This document shows, piece by piece, positions 2,974-38,378 of a stretch of 38,828 bases of DNA; the stretch's first letter is position 1, and every line of letters begins with the position of its first letter. Below the pieces are notes generated by a model. That model was not told the origin of the DNA, ran no database searches, and saw nothing but the letters and a program-made list of their open reading frames with translations. The stretch comes from Chlorobiota bacterium (lineage in GTDB: Bacteria; Bacteroidota; Bacteroidia; Bacteroidales; F082). The stretch spans positions 1-38,828 of the forward strand of contig JAADIS010000130.1 of the NCBI GenBank assembly GCA_013151215.1, read 5' to 3'. The translations under genes and the position numbers were made by a program.

Positions 2974-5900
2974 TTATCTCTTGTCGGAAAACTTTTTCTC
3001 GTTGATATAAGCTGCTATCGCCAATATAAAGATAGCGGCAACACTATAATAAACGAAGGTCGGTACTGGCACCGAATCGCCTTTGGCATACGAATGCAAT
3101 CCCGAAAGATAGTAGTTTACCCCGAAATATGTCATTAAGATCGAGAAAAACCCGACTACGGAGGCGAAGTTGAAACTGAAACGGCCTCTTAATCCCGGCA
3201 TCATGCGCATGTGCACAATAAATGAATAAACTAGCACGCTTATCAAGGCCCAAGTCTCCTTTGGGTCCCAGCCCCAGTATCGGCCCCAGCTTTCGTTGGC
3301 CCAAACGCCACCCAGGAAAGTACCAACGGTTAGCATATACAGCCCGGCAGTCATGGCCCGTTCGCTAATGGCTGTCAGCTCGCCAATATTATCGTTCAGA
3401 TGCGCGAGGTTTGTTTTATTGCGGAAAATCATGATAATGAGATTGATAAATCCTAAGAGCATCGACAGGGCAATAAAACCATAACTAGCAGTGATAACCG
3501 AAACGTGGATAGTCAGCCAATACGATTTTAGGACCGGAACCAGGTTGGTGATTTCAGGATTCATCCAGCTAAGGTGTGCAACCATCAGAATAATAGAGGC
3601 CAGTATTGTTGTCGCCGAGAGCGTCATGTCCGATTTTCTGGCAAACATCAATCCGGCGAGCATAGTTACCCACGCGATATAAATCATCGATTCGTAGCCG
3701 TCGCTCCAGGGGGCATGGTCCGAGATATACCAACGCATAGCCAGTCCGGCGGTTTGTGCCAGGAACCCTATTGCAATAAGTACCAAGAATACTTTAAGGA
3801 CAGCGGCAACCCATTTTGAGGGCTTGAACAATGCGACGAACGAAAATATTATCATTATAAAACCTAGCAATCCGTAAAGGCTTCCCAGGCGGTTGAAAAT
3901 GTCCATTTTATTATAGCTGATCTCCAAAGCCACCTTAGTTTTCGATGGGATGATGTCGGCTCCGTATTTCTCTTGGTAATCTCCCATGCCCTTTACCAAC
4001 TGATTGGCCAAGATCTTGTTGCCGTCGGCTAAGCTGTTTAAATAGGAAGGTATTACACTTGCTATGAAGTTGGAGTCGGCCGAAGGTAAGCCCTTGATTT
4101 TGTCGTTTGGCGCAAACCAGGGCGAATGTGAATCGCGGGGGTCGGGAAGAATCTTCAGGAACGATTGTGTAAATACCATATAAGCAACGTTCAGCCTCTC
4201 GTCGGCGGCGATCAGGTCTTTCTCGAAAGTTCCCCTTTCCCCGGGTTTTTTGGCATAGGCGGCATTCACCTCCTTGCTAAGCTTATATGTCCCCTGGCTT
4301 AAATTGATAAAGTCGAGATATGTTGCTTTTTTGCCTGTTATACCAAGAAGTTCTTTTACCTTATCGTGCTTTACTTTAATGATGGGTGCTTGTTGCCACT
4401 CCACGGGATTGGCCATCATACTAAGGATGACTTCATCGGAATTCATCCCGAAAAGGCGGCTCTTGCCCCCGCTTATCTTACGAAGATACTCGCTGCTGAT
4501 CGTGTTGAAGGGAGCCAGCCTGCCCTGTACCTGTATCAGGAGCTTGCCGAACTTTTCAGCCTGTTGCTTTTCAACACGGGGCAGGTTTTTCTCGTTGAAC
4601 TCATGAGTGTGCTGGGCAATGGCCTGCGAACCGAACAAAGTAAAAGCAATTGCGACGATCGCCGTCATTCCTTTTCTCTTAAGTGTGTTTTTTGCTATCA
4701 CTCTTCCCATAAAGGCGAATCGGGAGTTTTTGTTTAACAATGACAACACCATTCCCAAGGCCATCAATAAATAACCAATATAGGTTATTGTTGTCCCCCA
4801 ATAGTCGTGACTGACCGAAAGTATAGTTCCAAGCTCATCCTGGTCATAAGATGACTGATAGAATCTATAGCCCCTGTGGTTCAGTACGTTGTTCATAAAA
4901 ATCCTTTTTTGTTCTTTAATGCCCATTTCGTCGTCGATGAGGACAACTTCACTGGCATAGGATGAAGGGCTCATGGAGCCCGGATAACGATCCAATTGAA
5001 AATCAAGGCATTTGAGCGCAAATGGCAGCTCGATTTCTTTGGAGCCATAAGTTATATAAATGTTTTTCCCGTTGAGCATAAAAGCCGCCGCAGTTCCTTG
5101 ATAGCCTTTTCCTCCCTTAACGGGAATTTTAAGGGTCTTACCGCCCGAGCTGGCTTCGACTATAATGGCATCCTTGAAATTTATATCTTTTCCGCTGTAA
5201 TGCAGCAGGCGTATCTCGGCATTGGGATAATAGTTTTTGACTACCATGCTTAAGCCCTGCATCTTGTAAAGGAAGCCCTGGGAAAAATTACTCCATTCGC
5301 CGGGCATCAGATTTCCCTCTGCACCACCGGACATTGCCATGCTCGTGATGGTGTCGCCTGCATTTACCTGCATAAAACCATTGTTAAGCTTTATGTTGAC
5401 TGCGCCGGCGACGAATTCATCGCCAAAGTTGATGATATAAGGCCCAACGCGCTTATGCTCACCGTATTTAATAGTGTTGCTTGTGCGCCCGCTATTGCCG
5501 TATGATGTTACGAGTACTAGATATGGATCGCCTTCCCCGCTTGATTTTACAATCTTTTCCCTGGCATTCGGGATGAACTCCACCGATTTGAATTTATATT
5601 TCTCGCCGTCAACATCCATGCTCATATTGAAGTCGCCTTCGCTAAAGGCCGACATCAGAACTTTCTGCGATCTTGCGGTTTCTGTATTGCCGCTTACGAT
5701 CTTAACGTCAACATAGGTGTTGTCCGATAAAAATGTTGATGACGTGGCTCCTTCCCTGATGTGCATGCTGCCTTCGTAGCTTATGAATCGTGTAATCCCG
5801 GCACCTATCAGTACAACTATAAAAGATATGTGGAAAACAAAAAGCGTTATTTTCTTTTTGTTCCACATCTTAAACCGGATAATGTTGTTGACAAGGTTTG

Positions 5901-31437: not shown

Positions 31438-32682
31438 TCAGAAAGACCATTTTAGATCGAGGAAGTACATTTGGCCAAAATCACCGAACTCTGTTAGCAT
31501 GTCCCCGGTAAATATTTGGCTAACAAGCATTAAACTGATGTTGTCGCTTAGGCTGAATGTTGCGGAAGGCCCAAGGTAAGCCGATTTGTCGAAGGGGTTG
31601 AGGATGGCTGAGAACGTTACATTTATCAAAGGGCTTGCAGGATACGATAGTTGCCCGAAAATGTCGAAACGCGATGGGGTCAGGTTCTTTACATTCAAAC
31701 TGCTTGAAAACATGGTGTTTAAAGATCCTAATCCAGCGTTTTGATTTTTATATGCGTAATCAGTACTGCCATTGCTGTTGTAAATACATGAAATGCTGAC
31801 CATTAACTGGTTCTTGAAGATGTAGTCGGCACTAAGCGAGGCAACAACTATTCCTGAGGTGTCGGAAAAATCATCTTTGTCCTTAAACCAGCTTAACTCC
31901 CCGGTGAAACCGGCACCACCAATATTTCCTGCCCACCCCATACCTGCAGTGATATCGGTCTGCATCATGCCGCCAAAGAATTGGAAATCGTAATTCCATT
32001 TATTGAATTTATACATTGCAGCAGCGGTGAGACTTAGTTTCTTTTTGGTGTTTAGGGAGTCAAGGAGTTCAATGCGATAGTTTAATTTAGCAGCAAATTG
32101 AACTGATGAAAAATCCCCTGTATAATATTGCATTAAGACGGCATCGCTGCCGGGTCGTTCTATATAGTTGAAATCGAAATAGTTAAGTGCATTAAAGATG
32201 TCGTTGGGATTCCATACGAGGTTTGTGCCCCAGTTTATCCTTTGCCGTCCCATGGTTATTTCAAACTTTTTATATGCAAACTTAGCATTAAGCCTGTCGA
32301 GGTTAGTGTAAAGAACATTGGAATCGTCGCCGGAGATTTTCCATGTTAAATCCATATAACCATCATCGTAGGTCAGGAATTTTGCATAATCGAAAAGATT
32401 GTTGTACGCAGCCACCAAAGGGCCGAAAGTGAAATTGTTGCGCATTCCTACATGAAACTCCAGTTTGTTGGAGGGGTTCCACCAAAAGTTGAACCTGTTG
32501 TAAATTGTACTTTGGCTTTGCCATGTGTTGAAGCCCAATGACTTATATGTTTGGCTGGGTATCCAGTTGTTGTTGAGGTATTCGGCAAATCCGGTCATCC
32601 GTAGGTTTTTTTGTGCTCTTGCATTAAGCCCGATAAGCATAAAAACCAGTACCAGTACTGAAATTCTCATAACTTTTTTCAT
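31438..32682 (-). CDS. Outer-membrane beta-barrel protein, DUF1302/porin-like
   Basis: 414 residues. Signal peptide (1-23, ending ARAQ), then about 16 or more amphipathic strands, ending in LKWSF, an outer-membrane beta-signal. GRQRINWGTNLVWNPNDIFNALN near 145 resembles the DUF1302/alginate-export style of porin (GRQ...WG..-NP.D.F). In other bacteria DUF1302 barrels are found with LolA-like proteins and membrane transporters. Here the same strand carries a LolA-like protein, two FtsX permeases and an ATPase upstream, separated from this gene by the transposase and its hairpins. It may be the outer-membrane end of that route (inference). Confidence 0.78.
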   Translation of the reverse strand: MKKVMRISVLVLVFMLIGLNARAQKNLRMTGFAEYLNNNWIPSQTYKSLGFNTWQSQSTIYNRFNFWWNPSNKLEFHVGMRNNFTFGPLVAAYNNLFDYAKFLTYDDGYMDLTWKISGDDSNVLYTNLDRLNAKFAYKKFEITMGRQRINWGTNLVWNPNDIFNALNYFDFNYIERPGSDAVLMQYYTGDFSSVQFAAKLNYRIELLDSLNTKKKLSLTAAAMYKFNKWNYDFQFFGGMMQTDITAGMGWAGNIGGAGFTGELSWFKDKDDFSDTSGIVVASLSADYIFKNQLMVSISCIYNSNGSTDYAYKNQNAGLGSLNTMFSSSLNVKNLTPSRFDIFGQLSYPASPLINVTFSAILNPFDKSAYLGPSATFSLSDNISLMLVSQIFTGDMLTEFGDFGQMYFLDLKWSF

Positions 32683-32750
32683 CTTCGTTATTTTTATCTT
32701 TTCCTTTCCGGGATTCCTAAGGTAACGGCAGACAGCAGCAATCCCGAAAC

Positions 32751-32840
32751 GTTGAACCCATCATGCCCTTCAGGATTTGTAATCCGGAAGTGTTGAACTA
32801 ATCATGCTCTTCCGGATTTGTAATCCGGAAGTGTTGACCC
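32751..32840. repeat. Two 41-bp tandem units plus a partial third, each with a hairpin
   Basis: Units begin at 32751, 32792 and 32833 with GTTGA; the first two agree at 37 of 41 positions, the third is only a stub. Each full unit has a hairpin GGATT-TGT-AATCC; in the second it is a perfect 10-bp stem, CTTCCGGATT/AATCCGGAAG (32809-32831). The stub runs into a third hairpin, GGGATT-CTT-AATCCC with a T-run (32842-32862, plus strand). These are related in core sequence to the double hairpins beside the transposase. Confidence 0.75.
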
Positions 32841-32867
32841 GGGGATTCTTAATCCCTTTTTTAAATT

Positions 32868-32920
32868 GCGGATTGCAAATCCGCAGGTCCAATACCTCCG
32901 GATTGCAAATCCGGACGAGC
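32868..32920. repeat. Double hairpin (BIME-like), copy downstream of the transposase
   Basis: Two perfect hairpins, GCGGATT-GCA-AATCCGC (32868-32884) and TCCGGATT-GCA-AATCCGGA (32897-32915), joined by AGGTCCAATACC and ending CGAGC. The same 53-base layout recurs in direct orientation at 33624-33676 on the other side of the transposase gene. Confidence 0.8.
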
Positions 32921-32977
32921 ACGGTTTTTTTATTTTAAACATTTCAAATTCAATCAGATTATTATGTGTTGTTAAAT

Positions 32978-32989
32978 GAACAGCTGTTC
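32978..32989. promoter_or_regulatory. 12-bp palindrome between transposase and barrel gene
   Basis: GAACAGCTGTTC is a perfect palindrome with GTTAA and TTAAC flanking it on either side. It lies 296 bases upstream of the barrel start and 27 bases from the transposase stop. It could be an operator, but the distance is long. Confidence 0.3.
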
Positions 32990-33015
32990 TTATTAACAGT
33001 GCTAAAATACGAAAA

Positions 33016-33561
33016 TCAGACAAGGATAATATCTAATAAACCCTTTCCCCCGGCATAATCTATTGCCGAGCTGTACCTATAATCCTCTGCATTGTTAACG
33101 ACTTCGGATTTTACGGGGTTTTGGTGTATATAGTTTAATTTCTGTTCCAGGAATTCTACCCTGACAATTTCCTTTGCCTCATTTCCATCCTGCCAAAACT
33201 TATAGTTTTTTATTTTCGGATTGTTTCTTCCAACAAATTCAAATTCATCCAGCATCCAGTGTTTTCGACTTTCGTGAGGATTTTCAATTATCTCATTTAC
33301 AATGGCTTTGCTTGTAAATTTCTTAAAATCCCTTAAAATACCAGAAAGGTTTGTCTTTTCATCCGCTTCAGCAATAAGGTGGAGATGGTTTGTCATCAAA
33401 CACCATGAATAGAGAACAAGCCCTTTGTTCTCTTGATTGTACTTCAATGAATCTATCAGGATATTCTTATAAACCGGACGGGTGAAAACATCAATCCAAT
33501 TGACAACTGTCATTGTTAGAAAATAGATATGGCCAGTTGATATTTTGTTTTTTAACCCCAT
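33016..33561 (-). CDS. REP-associated tyrosine transposase (RAYT, Y1/HUH family)
   Basis: 181 residues from the ATG at 33561; the frame extends upstream through hairpin repeats, which are not coding. The Y1 transposase signature is complete: His59 and His61 in MTNHLHLI (HUH metal site) and Tyr144 in LNYIHQNPVKSEVV, the nucleophile that cuts single-stranded DNA. Such single-copy proteins are thought to spread REP/BIME hairpins, which they cut next to the stem. Double hairpins flank this gene on both sides, as expected. It sits between the ABC ATPase gene and the barrel gene. The gene looks intact. Confidence 0.92.
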   Translation of the reverse strand: MGLKNKISTGHIYFLTMTVVNWIDVFTRPVYKNILIDSLKYNQENKGLVLYSWCLMTNHLHLIAEADEKTNLSGILRDFKKFTSKAIVNEIIENPHESRKHWMLDEFEFVGRNNPKIKNYKFWQDGNEAKEIVRVEFLEQKLNYIHQNPVKSEVVNNAEDYRYSSAIDYAGGKGLLDIILV

Positions 33562-33623
33562 TGTGTTATTTCTTTGTCGTATTTTGTAAATCGGTTCTAT
33601 TTCAATAGTTGTGAAAGGATGTT

Positions 33624-33676
33624 GCGGATTAAAAAATCCGCTGGTCCAGGCATCCGGATTGCAAATCCGGATGAGC
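33624..33676. repeat. Double hairpin (BIME-like), copy upstream of the transposase
   Basis: GCGGATT-AAAA-AATCCGC (33624-33641) and CATCCGGATT-GCA-AATCCGGATG (33651-33673, perfect 10-bp stem), joined by TGGTCC and AGG and ending TGAGC. Same length and order as the copy at 32868-32920. A smaller hairpin TCTGCC-TTC-GGCAGA (33687-33701) and a partial repeat AAATCCGGATGAGC (33705-33718) follow toward the ATPase gene. Confidence 0.8.
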
Positions 33677-33744
33677 TGCAGGTTTATCTGCCTTCGGCAG
33701 AAAGAAATCCGGATGAGCGTTACGAGCAATTAAGCCCGATTTTA

Positions 33745-34437
33745 TCAATCTCTCTCAAAATATTCATCGCTCAGTATTTTCCCGTCTTCTATGGTAACTA
33801 TCCGATGAGCTTTGTCCATGACTCTTTGGTCGTGGGTGGCAAATATGAAGGTGGTATTGTATTTTTTATTCATTTGCGACATCAATTCCAATAAACTGTT
33901 AGTAGCCTTTGAGTCGAGATTGGCCGTAGGTTCATCTGCTAGGATGAATTCGGGTTTTGAGGCAAGGGCACGTGCCACTGCCACCCTTTGTTGCTGGCCG
34001 CCTGATAATTTTGAAGGGCGGGCATTTATTCTATTGCCAATCCCAACAGCTTCAAGAAGGTCTTTTGTTCTTTTTTCGCGTTCTTTTTTCGGTTTTCCCT
34101 GCAGGTGCATAATGAATTCCACGTTTTCGCCTGCCGTTAAAACCGGGATTAAATTATACGACTGGAACACGAAACCTATATTGTTCATCCTGAAGTCGAT
34201 AAGTTGTCGCGAGCTCAATTTCCATACGTCAATACCACTAATTATCACCTTGCCTGAAGTAGGCTTGTCGAGCCCGCCCAGCATATTGAGGAATGTTGTT
34301 TTTCCCGATCCCGAAGGTCCCACTATGGCGGTGAACTCACCTTCTTCAAAATTTATATCTATCCCGTTAACGGCTTTGACTATCACCTCGCTGGTTTTAT
34401 AAATCTTTGTAAGGCCTTTTATCTCAATAACATTCAT
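33745..34437 (-). CDS. ABC transporter ATPase, LolD/MacB type
   Basis: 230 residues. Walker [10 protein letters not shown] (40-48), Q-loop in [18 protein letters not shown], signature LSGGQQQR (144-151), Walker [12 protein letters not shown] with Glu169, and the H-loop ATHDQ. The FNMLGGLD-like region after Walker A ([14 protein letters not shown]) and short length fit the LolD/MacB/FtsE group, which power FtsX-type permeases that act by mechanotransmission rather than by a substrate channel. It follows permease 1 after 79 bases on the same strand and precedes the transposase region, so it is the last gene of the core operon. Confidence 0.94.
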
Positions 34438-34512: not shown

Positions 34513-35733
34513 TCATTCAATCCTCAATGCATCAGCAGGGTCGTTTCTAAGAGCCTTATAGGCCGGATAAATGGCGGCGATAACTCCTGTGAGGATAACC
34601 AGCAATGTTATATCGACCAACATTGATGGATCGAGTTGAGTATAGACGAAGGCGTCATAACCAAGTTGTTGATACCCTTGTGCCCACGCACTAAGGTCTA
34701 TGGGGTGGGTCTCGCCATACTTGGAGGTGATTGCCCCTATCACGATTCCAACAATGCCGCCGGTAAGTGAAAGCATTACCGATTCCAAGACTATCATGGA
34801 GAATATCTTGGCTTTATTCATTCCTATCGCCATGAGCATCCCAATTTCCTTGGTTCTTTCCATAACAACCATTAGCATGGTGTTTATAATGCCGAAGAGC
34901 AGAGCGAGCAATATAATAACAATGAAGATATACATATATAAGTCCATTGCCTCGGTAAGATAATTCATCTCCGGGCGAAGTTCTTTCCATATTTTGACCG
35001 ACATCTTATCACCTGCAACTTTCTTTACCGCCTGGGTTATAGCAGGAAGTTCTTCCTTATTGCTAATGTTGATAGCAATCTCGTGAGCTCCTCCCACAGG
35101 GAAGTTAGTTAGTTTTTGCAGGTCGGAATAGCGCACGAACACATTTGCTTCGTCGAACATATTATTGTCGGTGGAATAAATTCCTGCCACCCTGAAAGCC
35201 CCTGAGGTGATATTGTTTTGCAAGTCCTGAACAGTAATTACGAATTTGGACCTTATTCTCAGGTTTAATTTTTCGGCAAGTTTTTTCCCGATTACAGCAG
35301 GGTTTCTTTTTATGCCCTTGAAATATGCACCATCAACGATTTTGTTGCTTATGCTCGTAACCGACTTTTCCTGTTCGGGGTTTATCCCCGAAATCAGCAC
35401 TCCGCTGGCAGTTTCGGCCGACGCTGCCATCGACTGTATAACTATCCGTTTGCTAACACCAGCTACGCCATCGATATTGTTGATGGATTTTAGCAGTTCC
35501 GCCGCATTCGGAATATAATCGGTGATGTCATTGGTTTCCTCGAAGCCGGCCTTGTGTATCTGGATATAGGATATCTCGGTATTGATAACCTTTTGTATCC
35601 TTTGATCGGCCATCCCCTTGAAGAAGGCAGTTGCCAGAACACCGGCAAAGATGCCCATGGCCACCGACAAAATAATGACCATGCTCCGGACTTTGTTCCG
35701 CCAAATGTTCCGCCATGATATTGATAATAACAT
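34513..35733 (-). CDS. FtsX-type ABC permease (first of two)
   Basis: 406 residues. One membrane helix after the start (MLLSISWRNIWRNKVRSM then AMGIFAGVLATAFF), a periplasmic MacB-like domain (about 45-260), then three helices (IFIVIILLALLFGIINTMLMVV, SLTGGIVGIVIGAI, and near the end) with MERTKEIGMLMAIGMNKAKIF between, the FtsX consensus. Known relatives (LolC/E, MacB) move lipoproteins, toxins or lipids from the inner membrane. It lies 50 bases after permease 2 and before the ATPase. The C-terminus ALRIE is the usual FtsX-family end. Substrate unknown. Confidence 0.9.
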   Translation of the reverse strand: MLLSISWRNIWRNKVRSMVIILSVAMGIFAGVLATAFFKGMADQRIQKVINTEISYIQIHKAGFEETNDITDYIPNAAELLKSINNIDGVAGVSKRIVIQSMAASAETASGVLISGINPEQEKSVTSISNKIVDGAYFKGIKRNPAVIGKKLAEKLNLRIRSKFVITVQDLQNNITSGAFRVAGIYSTDNNMFDEANVFVRYSDLQKLTNFPVGGAHEIAINISNKEELPAITQAVKKVAGDKMSVKIWKELRPEMNYLTEAMDLYMYIFIVIILLALLFGIINTMLMVVMERTKEIGMLMAIGMNKAKIFSMIVLESVMLSLTGGIVGIVIGAITSKYGETHPIDLSAWAQGYQQLGYDAFVYTQLDPSMLVDITLLVILTGVIAAIYPAYKALRNDPADALRIE

Positions 35734-35783
35734 TGTATATTTTTTTAAGTTTTTATTCTTTGATTTTCCCTTAACAGATCAAA

Positions 35784-37001
35784 TCAGCTTCTCAGGGCCG
35801 ATGTTAAGCTTAAGGTATATGCTTTTATAACCGGGTAAACAGCTATAAACAAGGTGATGATGAAAACCACTATTGCCTGTACATAATAAATATCGGGTTG
35901 AATAGAAAAGTACATATACGGCTCAATTCCCATGTCGATCATTGTTTTGGCAGCATCGCCCTCCAGCGGCATGGGATTTAAATAATAATAATATGTAAGA
36001 GGGATGCTCGCTGCTATTCCTGCGGCCGCGCCTAAAAGACCTATGAAGAAAGTTTCTATAAACAGTATCCTGCTAAGCAAATATCTCTGCATCCCAATTG
36101 CTATCATAACACCGAGCTCGCGCTTCCTTTCGGAAACCATCATAAGTATGGTGCCAAGTATGCCGAAGGTGATTATTAAATATAGTATCGACTTCATAAA
36201 CAATCCGCCGGCTTTGTCCCCTTCTATCATCTGTACGAGCCCGGGTTGTAATTCCTCCCAGGACCTGATCATGAATGGTGGTTTAATCTTGCTTTTCAGG
36301 TGGCTTAGAGCCGATGGTAATTGGTAGTTGTCGTGGAGCATCAACACCAACGAGCTGAGACGGTTAGGAGCCGAGAATAATTGCTGGCAGCTATTAAGCG
36401 GCATATATATGAACTGTTTGTTGAGTTCCGGCGACGGGAATTTCAGTATCCCCTTTACCGGATAAATGCCGGCAGCCAGCACCCCGTGATAACCTTGTCC
36501 GTAAAGAACTATAGTATCTCCAACGCCTACTTTCAAATATTTTGCCAGATCTGTGGCAATAAGCACGGCATTGTCGTCCTTGCTTAAGTATTGACCTTTC
36601 TCCACCCATTTTTTAAGACCGGTTACCATGTTTTCCCGTTTAGGGTCTATCCCTATGATTACGCTGCCTTTGGTGAGATTTTCTGACGAGGCCAGAGAGA
36701 AATATTCCAAACGCGAAGTGTAATTTGTAAGCTTTGGCTCATCTTCGATTATTTGTCTTATAGAATCATTGAAGACGAAAGTGTTGTTGATGGTTTTGTT
36801 CTCGTGATAGTCCTGGGTAAATATCTGCATATATCCGGAGTAGAATTTTACTACGTTGTTTATCATCGACTCGTATGAACCATATTGCATAGATGTCATG
36901 AAAGTTGATAACAATACACCGAAAAATATAGAACCCGAGGTGATTACTGTCCGCCACGGTTTGCGCCATAAGTTCCGCCATGCTATTGTAATTATTCTCA
37001 T
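35784..37001 (-). CDS. FtsX-type ABC permease (second of two)
   Basis: 405 residues with the same architecture as its neighbour: start MRIITIAWRNLWRKPWRTV, a helix, a periplasmic domain, then three helices around SERKRELGVMIAIGMQRYLLS, ending ALRS. The two differ through most of the periplasmic domain, so they probably form a heterodimer as in LolC/LolE. It begins 29 bases after the LolA-like gene. One odd piece is a longer loop near 330-360 (YYYYLNPMPLEGDAAK) between the last helices, also present in the other permease in different sequence (LSAWAQGYQQLGYDAF). Confidence 0.9.
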   Translation of the reverse strand: MRIITIAWRNLWRKPWRTVITSGSIFFGVLLSTFMTSMQYGSYESMINNVVKFYSGYMQIFTQDYHENKTINNTFVFNDSIRQIIEDEPKLTNYTSRLEYFSLASSENLTKGSVIIGIDPKRENMVTGLKKWVEKGQYLSKDDNAVLIATDLAKYLKVGVGDTIVLYGQGYHGVLAAGIYPVKGILKFPSPELNKQFIYMPLNSCQQLFSAPNRLSSLVLMLHDNYQLPSALSHLKSKIKPPFMIRSWEELQPGLVQMIEGDKAGGLFMKSILYLIITFGILGTILMMVSERKRELGVMIAIGMQRYLLSRILFIETFFIGLLGAAAGIAASIPLTYYYYLNPMPLEGDAAKTMIDMGIEPYMYFSIQPDIYYVQAIVVFIITLFIAVYPVIKAYTLSLTSALRS

Positions 37002-37030
37002 TTTATTTTAATTATCAGATAATCAATAGT

Positions 37031-37792
37031 TTACTTAATTTTTTTCATGTTCTGCTTACTGAAAAAACTATCTTCCAGCTTAATATTGTATTCAATGTCC
37101 TTTATTTCCAAAATAGTTTTCTTGTTTGGTTCGTCAACCGGAATCATTTCAATTTTGGTAGGTATTGACCTGTCGCCCATCTGTTTGATATTGTATGCGT
37201 TCTCAATGTTTTGTAAAAACCCGTCCTCATCATAATATTCGGTCTTCCAGATGTTAAACCCGTCCTTGGTAACCCACGACTTTATTTTGCCCCAAACAAC
37301 GGGGGCGTCAGGATGTGGTACCAGCTCTATAACATAGCAAAGCTGGCCACGAACATCTTCTTCTCCAACTAGAGTGTGGGTATAGTCAACAACTATTGAT
37401 GATTGTTTTACGAGATCGTCGTTGGTGAAGTCGCTGCCCATCCACGACTGCATCATCATCGAGGGAGGTATTTTTATCATCCGTGATATCGTAGGGACAT
37501 AATTCCACATTTCTTTACCAACCTTTAGGAATACCTGTCCTTTTTCCTTGGCTGGCTTGGTTATGTATAGGAGGAACAGATCATCGCCTTTCGACCAATT
37601 TTTCATTTCTATCGTTCTTTCCCATCTCGGGCGCACTATGGTCATCGACATTAGCCCACGGCTCGAGTTGCCGCGGTTTTTCTTGTCGGCCTTGTCAATT
37701 ATTTCTCTTGCACTTAATTCCTGGGCAATTATGCTTCCCATCGGAACGAGTATTGCTGCCAAAATCAAGGCTGATATTCTTAATGTTTTCAT
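37031..37792 (-). CDS. LolA-like periplasmic outer-membrane lipoprotein-sorting family protein
   Basis: 253 residues from the ATG at 37792 (an in-frame TTG-led extension to 37822 would run into the TetR gene). Signal peptide (1-24, ending IIAQ). The body is the LolA-like fold of the lipoprotein-sorting family (PF17131 type): TIVRPRWERTIEMKNWSKGDD, KVGKEMWNYVPTISRMIKIPP, then SWMGSDFTNDDLV, a hallmark. Family knowledge: the open hydrophobic half-barrel carries lipid or lipid tails across the periplasm. The gene sits between the TetR regulator (13 bases) and permease 2 (29 bases), so it is surely part of the transport operon. Confidence 0.88.
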   Translation of the reverse strand: MKTLRISALILAAILVPMGSIIAQELSAREIIDKADKKNRGNSSRGLMSMTIVRPRWERTIEMKNWSKGDDLFLLYITKPAKEKGQVFLKVGKEMWNYVPTISRMIKIPPSMMMQSWMGSDFTNDDLVKQSSIVVDYTHTLVGEEDVRGQLCYVIELVPHPDAPVVWGKIKSWVTKDGFNIWKTEYYDEDGFLQNIENAYNIKQMGDRSIPTKIEMIPVDEPNKKTILEIKDIEYNIKLEDSFFSKQNMKKIK

Positions 37793-37805
37793 CCTGAAAA
37801 TGTTA

Positions 37806-38378
37806 TTATAAAAATTTATCAATTATTAATTTCTTTATGTCATCGATAGGAAATGAAACAGGGTCGACAATGTAATTAAGGCTTACCCCGTCTAATATGG
37901 CGCCCAGCAAACGTGCATGAGCCATGGGGTTTTCAAAACCTCTGCTTTCAAAATAATTGCTCAAAGCGTCTAAAAAGGGGAGCAAATATTCCATAAGCTT
38001 GTTTTCAACCAGCTTCATTACTTCGGGCTGCATCATGACCAGGAAGTATAACTTCCAAAAATCCAGGTTCTGTTTTAAAATCTCAAAAGTCTGATCAATG
38101 AAGTACTTGAATTTTGCTTCGCTAATGGCCTCTTCGGTTTTGGGGTCGTAAACGCTCATAAACTCATCGATCCCTTCGAGCATTATTTTTCCAATTAAAT
38201 CTTCTTTATTAGTGAAATAATTGTAAATCAACCCCTTAGAGATGCCTGCTTTTTTTGCTATGGCACTGATAGGAGTAGAGCTAAAACCCTTTTCCGCAAA
38301 AAGCCCAAGGGCTGTTTCCTTTATGAGCGCAATTTTCTGCCCCCTGATATCCTTGTATTGTTCCTCTGTCCGCGGCAT
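37806..38378 (-). CDS. TetR/AcrR-family transcriptional regulator
   Basis: 190 residues. The N-terminal helix-turn-helix is typical (ALGLFAEKGFSSTPISAIAKKAGISKGLIYNYFTNKEDL, residues 23-61), followed by an all-helical ligand domain with no recognisable ligand motif. It is first in the operon, 13 bases before the LolA-like gene. An operator-like palindrome overlaps its own promoter, so it probably represses itself and the transport genes until a ligand, perhaps the transported lipid or a toxic amphiphile, binds. Confidence 0.92.
   Translation of the reverse strand: MPRTEEQYKDIRGQKIALIKETALGLFAEKGFSSTPISAIAKKAGISKGLIYNYFTNKEDLIGKIMLEGIDEFMSVYDPKTEEAISEAKFKYFIDQTFEILKQNLDFWKLYFLVMMQPEVMKLVENKLMEYLLPFLDALSNYFESRGFENPMAHARLLGAILDGVSLNYIVDPVSFPIDDIKKLIIDKFL

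Follow-up and report, generated by a model that had tools for sequence, protein, structure and literature searches.

In the usual description, RAYTs are domesticated and immobile, and mobilize nothing but short REPINs. One of their branches, subclass 2.6 of the TnpA-Y1 transposases, has been little described so far. In the accessible part of PMC6006769, subclass 2.6 is equated with RAYT group 5, is placed mostly in Bacteroidetes, and is characterized by the motifs NH[LIV]H, WQ, YIH[QN]NP and SS, by an insertion of ~21 residues between helix C and strand 4, and by flanking 'atypical secondary structures' that have no GT[AG]G and have copies elsewhere in the genome. In TIRtrons/TIRYTs, a GGGGWSAS motif is a feature, according to the accessible text of PMC3733652. 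A literature search on RAYT mobility found one further report from Bacteroidota, PMC11194056, in which, according to its accessible part, RayT genes of Chryseobacterium lie close to a resistance gene.

Here we examine a RAYT gene within a bacterial transport operon; the window is the whole stretch of 38,828 nucleotides that was analyzed. A sequence-only reading of this DNA had described a transposase bracketed by directly repeated double hairpins and had proposed that the block may be a mobile unit. The RAYT unit that it described is genuine and does lie in an operon, but that reading took a long-resident copy for a mobile one.

A group 5 RAYT between the ATPase and barrel genes

The identification as a RAYT was confirmed by a score of 101.5 bits against NF047646 (cut-off 80) and a PF01797 score above cut-off; the IS200 model NF033573 gave 20.1 bits (cut-off 55). 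Across a profile of 23 sequences, H59, H61, W123, Q124, Y144, S164 and S165 are invariant. Y144, in YIHQNP, is a catalytic-type Tyr, and the catalytic residues appear intact. The sole PDB match of the profile was 4er8 (E. coli TnpA-REP), with E 1.1e-5 and over positions 37-82 only. All four motifs of subclass 2.6 (NH[LIV]H, WQ, YIH[QN]NP, SS) are present, and the flanking structures have copies in the genome, no GT[AG]G and GCT/AGC feet. The 5' GTAG/GTGG foot of canonical REPs is absent, the feet here being GCTC/GAGC. By these features, the predicted protein bears the published signature of RAYT group 5/TnpA-Y1 subclass 2.6.

A search of genome contigs yielded at least 559 relatives of this RAYT, of which 80 were kept; among the matches listed, the relatives belong to Bacteroidota, plus a few MAGs labelled Chlorobiota. 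PADLOC gave no match, no phage matched the RAYT, and 8 of 72,556 plasmid records contained matches, the best at 52% identity. The phage result and the sparse plasmid matches thus do not suggest a phage or plasmid route. The genome itself (G000) contains only this one RAYT of its kind. Two further Y1 transposases of the same genome, at C56:1542-1793 and C107:641-985, are likely of IS200 type, with Y1_Tnp scores of ~91-93 bits, much above that of the RAYT.

The minus-strand operon runs in the order TetR, LolA-like, FtsX, FtsX, LolD-like ATPase, [RAYT], barrel and a 170-aa protein (Table 1). The product of the barrel-type gene had no family match in Pfam or NCBIfam at E 0.001. The placement of the RAYT between the ATPase and barrel genes, all three on the minus strand, was correctly read. 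The suggestion that the operon had been split holds in part: the insertion widens the gap between two co-directional genes, but no gene is broken.

Table 1 Features of the RAYT unit and its operon, in window coordinates
Feature	Position	Strand	Details
Barrel-type gene, downstream neighbour	31438-32682	minus	
41-base tandem pair	32740-32821		holds a second, degenerate inverted right-end hairpin; family D2, 83%
Inverted double hairpin (REPIN right arm and outer unit end)	32806-32857	plus	
REPIN, GCTC...GAGC	32806-32920		115 bases; fold z -9.0 (116 nt folded)
Downstream double hairpin (REPIN left arm)	32868-32921 (approx.)	minus	same orientation as upstream copy
RAYT gene	33016-33561	minus	181 aa; HUH motif NHLH, WQ, YIHQNP, SS
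Upstream double hairpin (unit start)	33622-33676	minus	foot GCTC, H1, GGACC, H2
Partial hairpin foot AAATCCGGATGAGC (33705-33718) beside nested palindrome TCTGCCTTCGGCAGA	33688-33718		
LolD-like ABC ATPase gene, upstream neighbour	33745-34437	minus	
Operon remainder upstream: two FtsX/MacB permeases, LolA-like protein, TetR regulator	34513-38378	minus	

Read along the operon, the arrangement is GCTC-H1-GGACC-H2, RAYT, GCTC-H1-GGACC-H2 again, and then H2'-GGGTC-H1'-GAGC, the last being the minus-strand reading of 32806-32857 (H2', GGGTC, H1', foot GAGC). In the upstream copy, H1 is a 10-pair stem with the loop TGC and H2 a 7-pair stem with a 4-base loop; the stems, GGTCC spacer, GAGC end and loops of 3 and 4 bases are as originally reported. 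In single-stranded DNA folding, 33622-33676 forms two hairpins (z -5.8) and 32868-32921 reaches z -4.9, and none of 200 shuffles was as stable as either double hairpin. The two directly oriented double hairpins on either side of the RAYT are both present, as had been claimed, but they do not simply bracket it. Because 32806-32857 and 32868-32920 together form a REPIN, the unit has inverted outer feet (GCTC...GAGC) and extends over ~32806-33676. The inverted hairpin at 32806-32857 had been overlooked, together with the 41-base tandem copy and the partial foot at 33705-33718. Palindromes (TCTGCCTTCGGCAGA and similar) enlarge hairpin loops at 33688-33702 and at the L160 and L201 junctions, so that one palindrome family sits inside another.

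Mirror-image ends across the subclass

A local alignment of the flanks, tried as a test of inverted versus direct arrangement, placed 54 versus 38 of 94 loci above the 95% point of the control (Wilcoxon p 0.63). Since the hairpins are self-complementary, such an alignment cannot separate the two arrangements, and we counted the strand of the loops instead, using 94 of 108 loci after dropping 7 duplicates and 7 loci with less than 250 nt of flank. In the gene-nearest hairpin upstream, TGC/TGT loops outnumber GCA/ACA loops by 46 to 4, and downstream the counts are 6 and 49, respectively (p 2e-18). Among stems of at least 8 pairs, the most frequent outer-foot triplet is GCT upstream (27/53; next 15) and AGC downstream (29/56; next 20), a ranking that is not a blind test because these feet had been spotted by eye before counting. 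An earlier count of feet used 101 of the 108 loci, duplicates included. Taken together, the loop-strand bias and the feet indicate that the ends of subclass units are mirror images. The proposal that the hairpins are recognition ends is therefore supported by the loops and feet across the subclass, but not in its original form with directly oriented copies as ends, because the downstream direct copy belongs to a REPIN, as one of its arms, and the true outer feet are inverted.

In orthologues at the same site, stem changes are paired on both sides; at pair 2, for instance, G-C becomes A-T, and at pair 4 C-G becomes T-A. The H1-type hairpins of these orthologues form 7-8 of 8 outer pairs, the exceptions being G003 (upstream, 4) and G013. 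For comparison, among the background ATTNNNAAT cores of the window, 30 form 1-4 pairs and one forms 6.

Alleles of the ATPase-barrel junction in relatives

Within the family, 173 genomes were searched; 55 gave a RAYT match at a threshold of 1e-40 and 45 contained the barrel gene at 1e-50. We fetched 37 of these 45 genomes and resolved the junction in 34, G000 included; G006, where the genes lie 5.6 kb apart, and G063 and G178, where the ATPase is absent from the stretch, were left out. Nine of the 34 genomes carry the RAYT at the junction (G000, G003, G021, G028, G033, G064, G072, G179 and G184, from genera g1, g2, g3, g10 and g12), one carries a broken RAYT with a stop and an insert (G013), five carry hairpins without a RAYT (G005, G019, G067, G183 and G187), and 19 carry neither. 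The G184 junction is spread over two contigs, and G015, which may hold a hairpin remnant, was counted as empty. The order TetR-LolA-FtsX-FtsX-ATPase-[RAYT]-barrel is shared among relatives.

An empty site was expected in relatives, and in at least 12 genomes the ATPase gene is indeed close to the barrel gene and the RAYT is missing. The gaps in these are 3-207 bases, with other sequence in the rest of the 19, and the empty junctions are too diverged for a target-site duplication to be read. RAYT-less junctions are also found within RAYT-bearing genera. In G187, a sister of G028, nothing is left of the unit but the final RAYT codons and the hairpins of the right end, and this species pair directly demonstrates loss by deletion. 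According to the sequence-only reading, the same arrangement in all relatives would mean that the block is old and immobile; the relatives go halfway toward this, with a RAYT in 10 of 34 genomes, the broken one included.

The same gap in a more distant operon copy (L176; genome G027, C71:2061-3009) holds another small transposase-like ORF, which is IS200-like, shows an NHVH motif by eye and is flanked by short palindromes. Perhaps the ATPase-barrel gap is favoured by HUH elements. At three loci of genus g15 (L172, L173 and L208, in G031, G018 and G196), a different conserved ORF fills the gap.

Arrival, exchange and retention of the RAYT

In a tree of 100 RAYT rows, obtained by dropping 7 duplicate loci and one short row from 108, nine site RAYTs and L028, which lies at another place in genome G027, form one clade (96/97). 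A quick tree of 88 rows, with 13 distant rows removed from the 100-row set and G072 added, placed all ten site RAYTs and L028 in one clade with an SH-aLRT of 93. The six top-scoring relatives among the matches listed are all at the ATPase-barrel site. RAYT distances correlate with operon protein distances for five genes (Pearson 0.53-0.66, Mantel p <= 0.0004). The RAYT and operon trees share 4 of 7 splits and disagree in 3, and only 12 of 20,000 random trees do equally well. These results suggest that the RAYT arrived once, long ago, was lost repeatedly and was to some extent exchanged between species. With a single gain, about 11 losses would be needed by hand count.

The alternative with the best prospects, which we nevertheless regard as unlikely, is that related RAYT units entered the gap several times, through homologous exchange by way of leftover hairpins or through targeting of the hairpins (homing). 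In its favour, the operon tree requires at least 6 RAYT changes, and the hairpin-only alleles of G019, G005, G067, G183 and G187 could be landing sites. Within genus g3, RAYT dS is 0.33-0.66 in three pairs, compared with 1.09-3.08 for the ATPase and FtsX1, and lies three- to six-fold below ATPase dS in 2 of the 3 pairs. The g3 RAYT is thus younger than its neighbours, indicating that at least some copies at the site were replaced across species. Between G021 and G184, identity jumps from ~75-80% in the ATPase to 90-96% in the RAYT, and the RAYTs of G000 and G003 are mosaic, with 58-78% identity in the first ~240 nt and 91-96% in most of the rest. However, the RAYT dS of the G000/G003 pair is 0.88, not lower than the 0.48-0.66 of its neighbours, the clade that unites the site RAYTs includes a single member from elsewhere, and the G187 allele is a deletion rather than a landing site. 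We infer a single insertion rather than several.

Judging from dN/dS, the RAYT is kept at the site under purifying selection: the ratio is 0.035-0.111 in the six pairs with finite dS, one of which involves the broken G013, and is similar to that of the neighbours.

A recently mobile unit in this genome, as originally proposed, is highly improbable and largely refuted for this copy: the catalytic residues appear intact, other hairpins exist in the genome and subclass units look mobile in other genomes, but the RAYT is the sole one of its kind in the genome and one RAYT clade fills the same site in other species of the genus and in four further genera.

We give equally little credence to the hairpins being kept as an attenuator or mRNA stabilizer of the operon transcript with the RAYT as a passenger: strong hairpins do lie between two operon genes, and REPs act on mRNA according to the accessible part of PMC6006769, but the operon (minus) strand showed no terminator-like site, the two on the plus strand are within chance (2 versus 1.1 +/- 1.1), 19 of 34 genomes have neither RAYT nor hairpins, and no Rfam family reached its gathering score. 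Promoter and terminator scans of the locus were at chance. The Rfam matches were plant and animal microRNA models far below their gathering scores and were rejected.

Hairpin copies accompany the RAYT

Further copies of the hairpin were predicted to occur in the genome, and CGGATT-N2-4-AATCCG is indeed found at 10 places in its 3.72 Mb, compared with 0 for a reversed-pattern control. Five of these perfect hairpins lie within 900 bases at window positions 32813-33669 and five away from the locus. The looser GGATT-N2-4-AATCC occurs 43 times, versus 7 in the control. Tagged hairpins number five in this genome, three at the locus and only 2 elsewhere.

Searching 61 genomes, we counted 5, 6, 6, 10, 37 and 42 tagged hairpins in the six with an intact site-clade RAYT, 0-15 in 22 with other RAYTs and 0-3 in 33 without a RAYT; the site-clade counts were compiled by hand, with the on-site copies of G028 and G033 counted by eye. 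The 13 genomes of the same family without a RAYT have 0-2 (p 1e-4 against those six, using off-site counts only). G005 and G032 have 15 and 13 tagged hairpins despite more distant RAYTs, indicating that the tag is not private to the site clade. REPINs occur at several places in G021 as inverted pairs about 70 nt apart, with feet about 90 bases apart. As in REPIN/RAYT systems, therefore, inverted REP pairs are dispersed (G021) and copy number tracks the presence of the RAYT.

Mobile-looking units elsewhere in Bacteroidota

Subclass 2.6 units elsewhere in Bacteroidota look mobile from the extent of their sequence identity. The Bacteroidales MAG G197 (locus L073) contains four intact RAYT copies and one truncated copy, and its RAYT has a match at 1e-60 in only 1 of 20 relatives (59% identity). 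All six pairs of the four copies are 91-98% alike over 694-707 bases. Beyond this, the loci match one another only in pieces of hairpin size, in the truncated copy and in a single 123-base repeat, and their flanks are not collinear. Misassembly is a caveat for a MAG, yet the copies are contig-internal and show differences of 2-9%. The unit ends are CCGTCG...CGACGG, and the unit measures 695 bases in two copies; matched with that end pattern, a third copy measures 720, since it continues into a second hairpin. In addition, G197 carries, at different places, two gene-less elements of 174 bases that have the same ends, are 96.6% alike and are similar to the unit over its first ~64 and last ~70 bases, suggesting derivatives that arose by internal deletion. 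CGTC-bearing ends are present on the RAYT units and gene-less derivatives of this genome (L073, L215-L225). The accessible text of PMC3733652 states that CGTC repeats flank no RAYT; the likeness to the ends seen here is in the tag only.

Identity is likewise confined to ~640-680 bases between L076 and L079, in one genome, and between L052 and L059, in two genomes; counter-examples are L060/L070 and the site loci, which share flanks. By eye, the RAYT unit at L076 (Chitinophagaceae MAG, ~4920-5605) lies inside a larger inverted repeat, as if it had inserted in an older palindrome.

Discussion

We consider it probable that the locus is a RAYT unit (REPtron) of group 5/subclass 2.6 that arose by one old insertion and was then resident, exchanged and lost. 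Under this account, the unit would have the plan foot-H1-H2-[RAYT]-...-H2'-H1'-foot with mirror-image ends, and the HUH/Y1 enzyme would recognize the hairpins in single-stranded form on one strand, with TTTGC versus GCAAA loops distinguishing the two strands. The enzyme would cut by the GCT/AGC foot and copy or move the entire unit or, alternatively, short REPINs that share its ends but lack the RAYT; for the RAYT at 33016-33561, both cutting at the foot and movement of REPINs are predictions. The one insertion between the ATPase and barrel genes would predate the divergence of the five genera that still carry the RAYT. Afterwards the gene would have stayed resident, been occasionally exchanged or made mosaic between species, been broken once and been lost in many.

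A broader proposition, to which we assign even chances, is that the subclass 2.6 units of Bacteroidota are autonomous single-strand transposons with mirror-image double-hairpin ends and gene-less derivatives, and that the family switches between mobility (G197, G198) and long, fixed residence in an operon (this locus), the leftover hairpins letting the gene be exchanged or return. The locus offers a phylogeny-dated site with full, broken, scarred and empty alleles. Together with the candidate active units of G197 and G198, this allele series makes self-movement of a RAYT directly testable.

Several known systems share parts of this anatomy. IS200/IS605 elements (TnpA-IS200) have the same HUH/Y1 chemistry and subterminal hairpins, but the RAYT reaches only 20.1 of the 55 bits required by NF033573, and the ends here are mirror-image double hairpins. 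TIRtrons/TIRYTs, as presented in the accessible text of PMC3733652, are similar in having a RAYT-like gene between long inverted repeats, which can be double palindromes. The REPIN/RAYT systems of Pseudomonas and enterobacteria (accessible parts of PMC8049555 and PMC3116915) likewise combine a long-kept resident RAYT with dispersed inverted REP pairs. Their tag is GTAG/GTGG, however, whereas the present system has another tag and a double hairpin per arm, and its copy number is far lower (2-42 tagged hairpins). Subclass 2.6/RAYT group 5, as described in the accessible part of PMC6006769, agrees in its motifs, its occurrence in Bacteroidetes and its atypical flanking structures. The class is therefore known, and the GCT/AGC feet may already be listed in Table S1 of that paper. 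The additions made here are the resolved ends, which are mirror-image double hairpins with GCT/AGC feet and loops that tell the strands apart, the allele series at one old shared site, and the multi-copy units of other genomes, whose near-identity is limited to the unit; these extend the description given in the accessible part of PMC6006769.
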